The notes below the pieces were generated by a model that saw only the letters and a program-made list of their open reading frames with translations, was not told where the DNA came from and did not search any database. From NCBI RefSeq assembly GCF_000277815.2, contig NW_004057897.1, positions 103,644-167,643 on the forward strand: a DNA stretch of 64,000 nt, written 5' to 3'. The position numbers and the translations under genes are program-made. Position 1 is the first letter of the stretch. Every line of letters starts with the position of its first letter. This document shows positions 26,316 to 50,418 of the stretch, in pieces. Source of the DNA: Encephalitozoon hellem ATCC 50504 (taxonomy: Eukaryota > Microsporidia > Unikaryonidae).

Positions 26316-26946
26316 ATGCAATCTGCAAGAAAGACTAATCAACTGGCCATTCCTGATCTCCCGAAGGAGGTAACTGTAAAGGACCTGCTAGAGGCGTTTT
26401 CTAAGTATGGAAAAGAAATGTAAGTGAAGATAAAACATCCTTGGTTCGTGAAACTGAGTCGTGATGAGGATTTTGAGACAGATACTAACTTTTAGAACGG
26501 GCGTTAAGCTTAGCAAGCAAAGAAGATCCAGAGACGAGGATCTTAAGGTGGGGTATGTTGAGTTTGAGACCATTGAGGACACTGAGAAGGCATATGGAGA
26601 GGGGAAGGTTCAGGTAGCTGGAGAACCCAGGCAATTGCACTTTGCAAGAAGAAGAGACCAAAGGATGAAGGAGAGAGTCATTGTGTCGAGCAAGAAGGTG
26701 TATATTTCTGGAATTCCTGATGATACCAACAAGGACGAGCTGTGTTCCCTTTTAGGCAACTGCAAGATATCTGGAGACAAAGGTAAGAACTACCTTTTCG
26801 CAGAGTACGACAACAGTGAGGAGCAAGAAAAAGCACTGAACAAGATCAACAACATGAAGATCAATGGGTCGAAGCTATATGCAATGCCTGCTTATGAGAA
26901 GGCAAACATTGGAAGGATTGGTAGAAAGAGGAGCGACTCCAATTAA
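26316..26946 (+). CDS. Two-RRM RNA-binding protein with one spliceosomal intron
   Basis: Joined exons 26316-26419 and 26496-26946 give a 184-aa protein. RRM1 spans about residues 8-82, with RNP2-like LAIPDLP in exon 1 and RNP1-like VGYVEFE in exon 2, so the intron splits the domain between beta1 and beta3. RRM2 spans about 99-165 (VYISGIP, then NYLFAEYD). A basic tail follows. Without splicing, a TAA at the intron edge would stop translation after 35 codons. The product could be an mRNP or snRNP protein; no specific match to Pab1, U1A or nucleolin is clear. The promoter is of the strong class. Confidence 0.85.
26420..26495 (+). other. 76-nt spliceosomal intron in the RRM gene
   Basis: Donor GTAAGT is at 26420-26425. 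The TACTAAC branch sequence is at 26483-26489 and TTTTAG ends at 26495. Removing it joins exon codons across the boundary as AT|A (Ile) and restores one frame through a complete RRM. The first in-frame codon of the unspliced transcript after the donor G is TAA. The 3' end closely matches that of the second intron in this window (49635-49658). Confidence 0.88.
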
Positions 26947-35203: not shown

Positions 35204-36484
35204 ATGGTTAAGAGTAGCAATATAGCAATACACAGCCATGTAAAGTCCTTAGGGCTAGACAACTTTGGGAGACCTGTTGAAAAGCCAAATGCTGTGGTTG
35301 GGCAAGAGGATGCAAGAGAGGCCGCTGGACTTATAGTGGAGATGGTCAAAACAAAGAGAATGTCGGGAAGAGCCGTGCTTATATCTGGGCCTGCCGGATG
35401 CGGAAAGACGGCGCTTGCAGTAGGAATAAGTGAAGAGCTTGGCGCTGGAACGCCGTTTACTTCGATGAGCGGTAGCGAGGTATATTCCAATGAGATAAAG
35501 AAGACCGAGGTTCTTGAGGAGGCATTAAGGAGATCGATTCTTGTTAGGATGAGAGAGTTGAAGGATGTCTATGAGGGGGAGATTGTTGAGCTTAGGATTG
35601 TGGACGAGGAAAACCCACTAAACTCTTACTCCAAAAAGGTCAAGGAAATATTCATTACCCTGAAGACCAGCAAGGAGTCCAAGAAGCTTAAGCTCGCGGC
35701 ATCTCTTTATGAACAGATAGACAAGCAGAGGATAGTCAATGGAGACGTTGTTTACATAGAGGTCAACTCTGGGGTTATTAAGAAGTTGGGTAGAAGCGAG
35801 GCACACATGAATGATTTTGATCTTGAAGCCGACACCTATGTTCCTATTCCCAGGGGAGAGGTTTTGAAGAGAAAAGAGGTGATCCAATCTGTAACGCTTC
35901 ATGACCTGGACATGGCAAATGCCAAGCCCACTGGGCAAGACATGCTTTCTCTTGTTTTTCGAATATTAAGCCCCAAAAAAACCGAGATAACAGAGAGACT
36001 AAGGAGTGACGTCAACAGAATGGTGAACGAGTATCTAGAGAAGGGAAATGCAGAGATTGTTCCCGGGATCCTCTTTATTGATGAGGTCCACCTACTTGAT
36101 ATTGAATGCTTCACCTTCCTCCACAAGGTCATTGAATCACCTCTTAGCCCAACAATAATATTTGCCTCCAATAAAGGAATGGCTCCAATTAAAGGAAGCA
36201 ACGGGCTTTCTGGGCCCTTTGGGATTACAAAAGACTTACTTGACAGAATCATGATTATAACTGTGAAAAAGAATACAGAAGAGACCAACAGAAAGATCAT
36301 TGAGATGAGGCTGAAGGAGGAGGAGTTGCAGATGGATGACAATGCACTTTCTTTTTTTGTGAGTCTAAGCATCTCTAAGGGGCTGAGATATTGCATAAGC
36401 CTCATTCCTCTTCTGAAGACATATGGAGGGTGTGTTACCATCCAGAACGTAGAAGAAGTGAATGAGTTGTTCCACGACCGTTGA
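35204..36484 (+). CDS. RVB1: RuvB-like AAA+ helicase 1 (Rvb1/TIP49)
   Basis: A 426-aa AAA+ ATPase. IHSHVKSLGLD, VGQEDAREAAGLIVEMVKTKRMSGRAVL, Walker A GPAGCGKTAL, GSEVYSNEIKKTEVL, the insertion domain II with VYIEVNSGVIKKLGRS, VTLHDLDMANAKPTGQD, and Walker B LFIDEVHLLDIECF. ARPQGGQD-type sequence and TEITERLR favour Rvb1 over Rvb2. It acts in chromatin remodelling (INO80/SWR1), box C/D snoRNP assembly and TOR-linked complexes. It is slightly shorter than yeast (463 aa). The start at 35204 follows CCCC. Confidence 0.93.
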   Translation: MVKSSNIAIHSHVKSLGLDNFGRPVEKPNAVVGQEDAREAAGLIVEMVKTKRMSGRAVLISGPAGCGKTALAVGISEELGAGTPFTSMSGSEVYSNEIKKTEVLEEALRRSILVRMRELKDVYEGEIVELRIVDEENPLNSYSKKVKEIFITLKTSKESKKLKLAASLYEQIDKQRIVNGDVVYIEVNSGVIKKLGRSEAHMNDFDLEADTYVPIPRGEVLKRKEVIQSVTLHDLDMANAKPTGQDMLSLVFRILSPKKTEITERLRSDVNRMVNEYLEKGNAEIVPGILFIDEVHLLDIECFTFLHKVIESPLSPTIIFASNKGMAPIKGSNGLSGPFGITKDLLDRIMIITVKKNTEETNRKIIEMRLKEEELQMDDNALSFFVSLSISKGLRYCISLIPLLKTYGGCVTIQNVEEVNELFHDR

Positions 36485-47517: not shown

Positions 47518-48525
47518 ATGTGGGATGAGAAAGAAATCCGCAATGAATGGGATAAGGAGGCCAAACATTTAAACTATGGGGAGATTGAAAGAAAGCGTAA
47601 GGAAAAGGTTGACGAGTTAGCATATAGGCTTTTGGTAGAAAGGGAAAAGGCAAATAAAAACATTGAGGAAGAGCTTCAAAGGCTTCGTGACCAGGAGAAG
47701 GATCTTACTGAAGCAAGAAGCATTTCTGTAGATGTAGAAGAGATGACTGAGGAGACGCACGCCGATGACCCTGACGTCTCTGATTTTTCTACATCTGGTA
47801 AAGAGTTACAAAATAGTATCAATGAAGCACAGCCCTCATGCCCTACGAACATACCTTTCACGGAGGAGCTTGTCTCAAGATTTATTTTGAACAATGGCTA
47901 TGTGTCAATAGAAGAAAATATCTGGAAAGAAAAGCTCGTCATGCCAAAGGCAGCACAAATGCAGGCAAAGATCCAGATTAATAAAAGGCTGACCCAAGTC
48001 AGCGGAAAGGCCGGGCAGGTAGGAAAAATATTCAATGTCCTTAGAGAATATTCACATTCTTATGTGTTTTTAGAGACATTTACCTTAAAAATAGTTGAAC
48101 AAGGAAGATTGCAGGTAAGCTCATGCCCTGGCTCATATAGGGAATTTTCTGAGCTTTTCTGTATGTTCTACTCTCCTGAACTGATGGAATACTTTCGGGT
48201 TATTTTATTTACTAGGGAAGCTTCTGTAAATACTATCAAAGGAATCTACAGCATTTACTTTGGAGTGCTTGAAATTCAGAATAATGCCGATGAAGCATGG
48301 TTTTTTATCGCATCTGTACTGAACTCGAAGCAGAACAAACTATCATGCTATGTTGTAGAGTGTTTTTTCTCCATACTAGGAGACTTACTGTTTAGAGAAT
48401 GCAGGAGGCCTTTCTTCAAGCTCATGGAATATGTCAAGAAGTATTACTTCAAAGAGATGAACAACGAGCCATGCAAGACAAGGATAGTCTCTGCGTTTGA
48501 GAGATATGGGATGCAATGCGACTGA
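47518..48525 (+). CDS. GLE1: mRNA export factor Gle1-like
   Basis: A 335-aa protein. The N-terminal third is charged and coiled (ERKRKEKVDELAYRLLVERE). The C-terminal 200 residues look like the Gle1 helical domain: KIQINKRLTQVSGKAGQVGKIF recalls the K--+GQLTN----I--I start, and FLETFTLKIVEQGRLQVSSCPGSYREFSELFCMFYSP fits the KS+V-QAE-EV----A-PL---+--+---P pattern. Gle1 activates the DEAD-box ATPase Dbp5 at the nuclear pore cytoplasmic side. The stop overlaps by 10 bp an upstream ATG of RIO2, but RIO2 most likely starts later. The ATG follows CCC. Confidence 0.65.
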   Translation: MWDEKEIRNEWDKEAKHLNYGEIERKRKEKVDELAYRLLVEREKANKNIEEELQRLRDQEKDLTEARSISVDVEEMTEETHADDPDVSDFSTSGKELQNSINEAQPSCPTNIPFTEELVSRFILNNGYVSIEENIWKEKLVMPKAAQMQAKIQINKRLTQVSGKAGQVGKIFNVLREYSHSYVFLETFTLKIVEQGRLQVSSCPGSYREFSELFCMFYSPELMEYFRVILFTREASVNTIKGIYSIYFGVLEIQNNADEAWFFIASVLNSKQNKLSCYVVECFFSILGDLLFRECRRPFFKLMEYVKKYYFKEMNNEPCKTRIVSAFERYGMQCD

Positions 48526-48578
48526 AAGGCAAAACTGCAGGATATAAGTTTTTGATCAGCTTCAATTTTCATGCCCCG

Positions 48579-49556
48579 ATGAAGCTTATAACCGATGGAG
48601 TCTGGTCTCTTTCCAAGGAACACTTGAAGATACTTAAGACTGCAGAAAGATGCATGAAATCCCACACGACCATCCCTTTTGACACGCTAAAGCATCGATC
48701 GCAGATAAGAGGAAACTTTATGGAGCATGCGATAGACCTATGCAAATTGAAATTTCTCTCCTATGTTGAGAATGGATACAAGCTAACGTATTCTGGCCAC
48801 GATTGCCTTGCTATCAACAGTCTGAGGCTACGCGGACTTGAGATGATGGGGGACAAGATAGGGGTTGGAAAGGAGTCCGACATCTACCTTGGGGTGTACT
48901 GTGGAAAAGACTCTATACTAAAATTCCACAGGCTCGGAAGGTCCAGCTTCAGGAATGTCCGAAAGAATAGGGAGTATGCTAGCGAGAGAGTCGATTGGCT
49001 TGGCCTATCCAAAACATCCTGTAAAAGAGAAGTTGCATACCTAGAGAAGTTCAAGGACATGAATGTCCCTGCAGTGCTTGACTATGACAGACATGTTATT
49101 GTGCAAGAGTTGCTAGACTATCTTCCTCTTTACAAGACGTGTGTGTCCGATGTAAGTACGATCTTTTGGCTTATGATAGAGTTTATCAAAGACTTATGGA
49201 GAAGAGGATATGTGCATGGAGACTTTAATGAATTCAATGTTTTAGTGAAGGACGACATAAAAGTCATAGACTTTCCTCAGTGTATTCGGAATAGTGATGA
49301 AAGAGCAGTGCATTACCTCAGAAGGGACTTTGAGTGTGTCCTGACATATTTCAAAAAAAAATATAGATACGAGCCGGAATACGGATTGGATACCTTCATG
49401 AGTGAATTAGGCATCGAAGACCATCCATGCAAATCTCACGGCACAACCCCTGAGGACCTATCTACCTTCTCAGCTGATGAGGGTGACATCCAAAAAGAAG
49501 AAAGGCTATTGGAATCAAGGATAGAGGAAGTTTCCATTTTCTCTCACGAAGGCTGA
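48579..49556 (+). CDS. RIO2: RIO2 atypical protein kinase
   Basis: A 325-aa RIO-family kinase/ATPase of late 40S maturation. A winged-helix domain covers residues 1-80 (VWSLSKEHLKILKTAE, YKLTYSGHDCLAI). The kinase part has GVGKESDIYLG as a RIO2-type P-loop, KFHRLGRSSFR, the catalytic YVHGDFNEFNVLV and metal-binding VIDFPQ. The start at 48579 matches homologues and has CCCC directly before it; an in-frame ATG at 48516 adds 21 non-conserved residues and overlaps GLE1. The C-terminal tail is short. Confidence 0.93.
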   Translation: MKLITDGVWSLSKEHLKILKTAERCMKSHTTIPFDTLKHRSQIRGNFMEHAIDLCKLKFLSYVENGYKLTYSGHDCLAINSLRLRGLEMMGDKIGVGKESDIYLGVYCGKDSILKFHRLGRSSFRNVRKNREYASERVDWLGLSKTSCKREVAYLEKFKDMNVPAVLDYDRHVIVQELLDYLPLYKTCVSDVSTIFWLMIEFIKDLWRRGYVHGDFNEFNVLVKDDIKVIDFPQCIRNSDERAVHYLRRDFECVLTYFKKKYRYEPEYGLDTFMSELGIEDHPCKSHGTTPEDLSTFSADEGDIQKEERLLESRIEEVSIFSHEG

Positions 49557-49562
49557 TGAAGG

Positions 49563-49718
49563 CTATTTGCTTCCAAAGGTGCTTTTCATCCTGTCCAGCA
49601 AGGAGACTGCTCTGGAAACATCGTTTTTGTATTCCTAAAGTTAGATGAATCCACTTACCTGTAGGATGTCGTTATATTTGTCGAGAATCTCTTCCAGAGA
49701 CTGCTCAAAATTATTCAT
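49563..49718 (-). CDS. 43-aa micro-protein gene with a 24-nt intron
   Basis: Exon 1 (49718-49659, 20 codons) and exon 2 (49634-49563, 23 codons plus TAG) join in frame across a 24-nt intron. The ATG is preceded by CCC (taccctggatATG). The product is helical and charged: NNFEQSLEEILDKYNDILQ, then EYKNDVSRAVSLLDRMKS. The ILDKY---L------+S-+LL pattern recalls Dad3 of the DASH/Dam1 kinetochore complex, but the protein is much shorter and the likeness is weak. It fills the otherwise empty spacer between RIO2 and RPS3, ending 6 bp from the RIO2 stop. Confidence 0.75.
49635..49658 (-). other. 24-nt spliceosomal intron
   Basis: On the minus strand the intron starts GTAAGT (49658-49653) and ends CTAACTTTAG (49644-49635), with the branch A six nucleotides before the final G. 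Its 3' end nearly repeats that of the 76-nt intron at 26420-26495. Read through without splicing, exon 1 meets a stop (TAA of the branch region) within the intron. The 24-nt size is near the lower limit known for spliceosomal introns. Confidence 0.82.
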
Positions 49719-49750
49719 ATCCAGGGTACTCTGGCTGATTTCAGGAAATA

Positions 49751-49767
49751 AAAAATTTGCCCTCGAA
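49751..49767 (+). promoter_or_regulatory. AAATTT plus CCC start signal of RPS3
   Basis: AAATTT (49753-49758) and CCC (49760-49762) directly precede the RPS3 ATG at 49768. The motif lies 32 bp from the divergent micro-gene start (49718), so both genes share a very short regulatory region. Confidence 0.7.
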
Positions 49768-50418
49768 ATGAGTGATGATCAAGTTCTGAAAAGGTTCATG
49801 AAGAATGGACTTATAAATGCAGAGCTCAAGGAGTTTTTTGAGAAGGCGCTTGTGAACGAGGGCTTTAGCACCATGGAGCTCCGAATGCAGGAAACACCTA
49901 TAAAGATCATTCTGAAGGTTGCAAAGCCACACGAGGCAATAGGGGAGAAGAAGATTAGGCTGAAGCAGTTCCAGCATTTGGTTGCACAAAGACTTGAGGT
50001 TCCTGATGAGAATGTCGAGATAGTTGTTGAAAAGGTTCATGAGAAAGGGCTTTGTGCTCTCATCCAAGCAAATTTTATCAGAGAAAAGATGCTAGGAGGT
50101 GTTCAATACAGGAGGGCTGTGAATATGGCTTTAAAGGCCACGAGGCATTCTGGAGCACAGGGGTGCCAAATCATAGTCAGTGGGAAGTTGAAGGGACAGC
50201 GTGCTAAGTCTGTGAAGTTCCAGGACGGAGTGCTAATTCACAGTGGAAATGCAGTTAATGACTATATTAATACAGGATATGCTACTGTTGAAACTAAGCA
50301 AGGCATCATTGGTATTCAGGTTAGAATAATGTTACCGCACGATCCTGAAGGAGTGATTGGACCAAGCTATGCCCTTCCTGATAGGATTACTATTCTTGAG
50401 CCCAGCGAGACCCAGTAG
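49768..50418 (+). CDS. RPS3: 40S ribosomal protein S3 (uS3)
   Basis: A 216-aa uS3 protein. A KH domain (residues about 20-95) has LKEFFEKALVNEGFSTMELR and TPIKIILKVAKPHEAIGEKKIRLKQF; the C-terminal part has RRAVNMALKATRHSGAQGCQIIVSGKLKGQRAKSVKF and the end HDPEG--GPS--LPDRITI. It lines the mRNA entry channel. In many organisms it also takes part in DNA repair; nothing here speaks to that. The true start is 49768, supported by the strong promoter. Confidence 0.96.
   Translation: MSDDQVLKRFMKNGLINAELKEFFEKALVNEGFSTMELRMQETPIKIILKVAKPHEAIGEKKIRLKQFQHLVAQRLEVPDENVEIVVEKVHEKGLCALIQANFIREKMLGGVQYRRAVNMALKATRHSGAQGCQIIVSGKLKGQRAKSVKFQDGVLIHSGNAVNDYINTGYATVETKQGIIGIQVRIMLPHDPEGVIGPSYALPDRITILEPSETQ

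Follow-up and report, generated by a model that had tools for sequence, protein, structure and literature searches.

A small intron-split gene between RIO2 and RPS3 of Encephalitozoon hellem is very probably the orthologue of ECU09_1255

Does the short spacer between the RIO2 kinase gene and RPS3 of Encephalitozoon hellem ATCC 50504 contain a gene of its own and, if so, which one? The original prediction for this locus placed in the spacer a minus-strand gene of 43 codons whose reading frame exists only once a 24-nt intron has been removed. We examined the locus within a window of 64,000 nucleotides, the whole stretch of DNA analysed (contig NW_004057897.1), in which the spacer is 211 nt long. 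Every element that had been read from the letters (the ATG, the CCC upstream of it, the GTAAGT donor, the CTAAC branch site, the AG acceptor, the in-frame stop, and the removal of exactly 24 nt) proved base-exact on the minus strand, and Pfam confirmed both flanking genes. The explanation that had been offered for why ordinary ORF calling overlooks the gene, namely that each exon is shorter than 25 codons, is right. The CCC (49726–49724) lies 5 bases ahead of the ATG at 49718, and when exon 1 and exon 2 are joined without the 24-nt intron (GTAAGTGGATTCATCTAACTTTAG, of the form GTAAGT...CTAACTTTAG) a frame of 43 amino acids results (Table 1).

Table 1 Features of the RIO2–RPS3 locus, in window coordinates.
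Feature	Position	Strand	Description
RIO2 kinase	48516..49556	+	Convergent with the small gene; Pfam
Exon 2	49563..49634	-	23 codons plus TAG stop; EYKNDVSRAVSLLDRMKSTFGSK
Spliceosomal intron	49635..49658	-	24 nt, phase 0; donor GTAAGT, branch CTAAC, acceptor TTTAG
Intron-retained frame	49641..49718	-	25 aa; exon 1 followed by five intron codons, then the TAA of the branch-site CTAAC
Exon 1	49659..49718	-	20 codons (60 nt); MNNFEQSLEEILDKYNDILQ
CCC start-proximal signal of the small gene	49724..49726	-	CCC-like signal as in PMC2803860
AAAAAATTTGCCC	49750..49762	+	AAATTT-like and CCC signals of RPS3, signal types as in PMC2803860
RPS3	49768..50418	+	Divergent from the small gene; Pfam; start inferred from the CCC signal

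The small gene is tightly packed between its neighbours, with 6 nt between its stop codon and that of RIO2 and 49 nt between its start codon and the inferred start codon of RPS3. The AAATTT-like and CCC signals of RPS3 could possibly serve the divergent small gene as well. A search of the 163 nt that follow the stop codon of the small gene found none of six AATAAA-like hexamers. Upstream of its likely start at 49768 the frame of RPS3 stays open as far back as an ATG at 49645 and on paper overlaps the small gene; since this frame is open over 49645–49768 on the plus strand, an annotation that favours the longest ORF would overrun the small gene.

The intron has the properties of an Encephalitozoon spliceosomal intron (GT-AG ends, 24 nt, GTAAGT, CTAAC, AG), and its length, donor, branch site and acceptor fit both the published description (PMC3629993) and four other sites in this genome. 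These sites came from a search of the 2.25-Mb genome with a strict motif, GTAAGT N(3-33) TAACTTTAG, with the reversed motif as control; the size range of 22–76 nt and the strictness of the motif were taken from PMC3629993, and the letters of the small gene's intron were compared with the other strict-motif sites of this genome. The strict motif occurs at five sites, compared with none for the reversed control, and an open frame is joined at all five. Three of the strict-motif genes other than the small gene have a Pfam domain (eS8, eS30 and VPS9), and the 106-aa joined frame at the fifth site has no Pfam match. As these domains lie mostly in second exons, what they show is that the motif sits next to genuine genes, not that it is spliced. 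In the ribosomal genes found here the intron follows the first 3–4 nt, whereas that of the small gene, which is non-ribosomal, lies mid-gene.

The small gene is already known, and our description is for the most part a renewed sighting of it in E. hellem. The novelty that the original prediction implied was thus mistaken, since both gene and intron were in print in 2013 for E. cuniculi and the gene was listed for four species in 2015. Grisdale et al. (2013) reported the E. cuniculi gene ECU09_1255 and its intron from RNA-Seq, with more than 100 spliced transcripts; in the same study, whose E. cuniculi reads are public under SRP017112, splicing stayed under 50% for 30 of 37 introns (PMC3629993). 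Belkorchia et al. (2015), whose scan was a TBLASTX comparison of intergenic regions, listed ECU09_1255, Eint_091465, EHEL_091435 and EROM_090625, one for each of four Encephalitozoon species, confirmed the ECU09_1255 transcript by RACE in E. cuniculi, reported finding no orthologue of ECU09_1255 outside the genus, and gave its product in their Table 1 as 25 aa (PMC4589312).

We consider it very probable that the small gene, with its intron, is EHEL_091435, the E. hellem orthologue of the intron-containing ECU09_1255. Like ECU09_1255, which is expressed, it is tiny, owes its reading frame to an intron (PMC3629993 for E. cuniculi) and, by tag order, occupies the same spacer; it differs in that its spliced frame has 43 aa, compared with the 25 aa of the 2015 table (PMC4589312). 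Its placement draws on a Gle1-like gene that adjoins RIO2, has a Pfam GLE1 match just below the cut-off, is named nucleoporin Gle1 in E. cuniculi, and is 99% identical to an E. hellem protein. Gle1 bears the tags EROM_090640 in E. romaleae and Eint_091450 in E. intestinalis. On the assumption that tags step by ten, RIO2 would be 0630 and 1460, respectively, and the small gene would come next, at 0625 and 1465, as listed. The tag gap between Gle1 and the small gene accordingly fits one gene, RIO2, the same order as in the window, and under this assumption the Gle1 tags and the Pfam assignments place the gene between RIO2 and RPS3. We found no text in the literature that names RPS3 as ECU09_1250, so the link between spacer and tag rests on the Gle1 tags; the relevant text of PMC2803860 does no more than include ECU09_1250 in a list of abundant proteins that have an AAATTT-like signal, and that of PMC2474625 gives for S3 an accession only. 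A protein search with the 43-aa product found no relative, and RPS3 scans of the viral_contigs and genome_contigs sets found no sister locus. Three passages on introns from the 2023 telomere-to-telomere paper make no mention of the small gene; introns were added by hand to the 2023 annotations, and the records may therefore hold it (PMC10158259).

Two observations were made alongside these comparisons. Table 1 of PMC4589312 prints Eint_071493 for four different genes (ECU07_1645, ECU07_1775, ECU08_1445 and ECU08_1555), which looks like an error in the table. Eight lgn/jgi proteins (P0056, P0059–P0062, P0065–P0067) share 50–79% identity with the Gle1 neighbour; undescribed relatives may be their source, and the contigs of such relatives could show the same spacer.

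The 43-codon frame has a codon score of 15.0 bits, compared with at most 3.3 bits in the five other frames, a score that on its own is weak because 43 of 229 open 43-codon pieces from other spacers reach it. The helical moment of residues 3–40 was reached by none of 10,000 shuffles and their heptad score by 26 of 10,000, and the hydrophobic faces of the parts encoded by the two exons point in directions only 17.8 degrees apart. Among eight offsets tried at the exon join, the helix moment is best with zero residues added (0.533), with four or seven added residues nearly equal (0.529 and 0.511, respectively). Judged from its residues, the 43-aa product looks like one amphipathic helix. Against Pfam the 43-aa product drew five matches, all below threshold (the best, Clusterin, reached 17.3 bits where the cut-off is 23.6), and a PDB search gave 17 matches up to E 10, of which the best (E 0.37) is at chance level. 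The likeliest role, to which we give about an even chance, is that of a small coiled-coil partner in a larger complex.

Chance intron-like words in a random spacer are an exceedingly improbable source of this gene. Such an origin could draw support from the behaviour of a looser genome-wide pattern, which is no commoner than its reversed control (7 rows, representing 5 distinct sites, against 22), and from the presence in the window of a likely spurious antisense model. Since the control outnumbers the matches of the looser pattern, only the strict motif is informative, and at L001, an intron-like site from the looser pattern, no frame is joined. Against a chance origin, neither the strict motif nor a complete start-intron-stop model ever arose when the 211-nt spacer was shuffled 20,000 times with its dinucleotides preserved, and expression and splicing of the orthologue are both in print (PMC4589312, PMC3629993). 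Across the window the start-intron-stop models use three distinct introns, one of them probably spurious; 200 whole-window shuffles gave a mean of 0.155 models and reached three in one case only. As far as shuffles can tell, chance origin is excluded. That the gene is instead the unspliced 25-aa frame, its intron motif unused, we regard as highly unlikely, even though Table 1 of PMC4589312 gives ECU09_1255 just this length together with RACE-confirmed transcription in E. cuniculi, and the unspliced frame in E. hellem is likewise 25 aa, an exact agreement. Over a hundred spliced transcripts of ECU09_1255 (PMC3629993) argue otherwise, as does exon 2 itself: it keeps the reading frame, its separate codon score is positive (7.1 bits), and it carries on the helix face of exon 1. 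Most simply, the 2015 scan would have picked up exon 1 together with the intron, and the true product would be the spliced form. We also think it very unlikely that inefficient splicing yields a 43-aa spliced and a 25-aa intron-retained helix that are both used, the 25-aa frame being deliberately conserved between species.

The original prediction had further offered, as a weak pattern match, a role like that of Dad3, a subunit of the DASH/Dam1 kinetochore complex. What the small protein shares with Dad3 (PF08656) is helical character and a short stretch, EEILDKY, similar to the QEVLDKY found close to the N-terminus of yeast Dad3. The HMM comparison that had been proposed as a check, run with a home-made profile built from 54 Dad3 sequences, gave 5.4 bits, below the family cut-off of 23.1 bits; among 5000 shuffles of each kind, this score was equalled by only 62 when composition was kept but by 1643 when the hydrophobic pattern was preserved. 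Only residues 9–23 align, to profile positions 10–24, and the second half, which is common to both solved Dad3 chains (yeast and Chaetomium), is missing. Dad3 is absent from the hmmscan matches to Pfam, and the 17 PDB matches up to E 10 include neither Dad3 chain. Six-frame searches of the genome, with exons unjoined and without a positive control genome, found nothing for Dad1, Dad3 or Dad4 and, for Dad2, one weak piece of a 539-aa frame; a single-frame search of this kind cannot test the joined 43-aa protein for Dad3. On the Pfam, PDB and profile results we do not count the product as a Dad3 and hold a reduced Dad3 subunit to be a highly improbable identity. The Dad2 piece (L010, G000:C9:11459-11686) scores 17.9 bits against a cut-off of 26.9 and is probably a chance match of a coiled coil.

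Under the preferred reading, that of a spliced gene orthologous to ECU09_1255, transcription of the small gene, known from RACE in E. cuniculi (PMC4589312), would use a CCC-type start and run away from RPS3, and the reduced spliceosome would cut out the 24-nt intron, for which RNA-Seq of the E. cuniculi gene provides the precedent (PMC3629993). The spliced mRNA would then yield a protein of 43 aa, folded as one amphipathic helix, which would most likely act as a small coiled-coil partner of a larger complex; were the intron retained, the branch-site TAA would cut translation short at 25 aa. These findings indicate that a gene reported from RNA-Seq in 2013 can be recovered by reading raw sequence. 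Because the length given in 2015 matches the intron-retained frame (PMC4589312), the annotation of the small gene needs checking, and searches for homologues outside the genus are worth redoing with the spliced 43-aa protein. The conflict between 25 and 43 aa is the chief remaining point of interest.

The suggestion that more intron-split micro-genes are hidden in spacers gained no support within the window. When the criteria were relaxed to five donor words, a CCC or GGG upstream and a product of 30 aa or more, a scan returned nine models, comprising the small gene, an RRM-domain gene, and seven that overlap frames of at least 100 codons; two of these seven, which use a single donor at 36372, are antisense inside such a frame. 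The intron-like model at 36372-35899 on the minus strand lies antisense within the long plus-strand frame 35204-36484 and is probably a chance product. The RRM-domain gene (26316-26946, plus strand) is split by a 76-nt intron at 26420-26495 and, with an exon 1 of 104 nt, departs from the ribosomal 3–4 nt pattern as the small gene does. In E. cuniculi the range of intron sizes tops out at 76 nt, and the longest intron belongs to ECU09_1470, a gene with an RNA-binding domain (PMC3629993). The RRM-domain gene fits this longest-intron gene and provides a second, looser check on the link between the published locus tags and the spacer.
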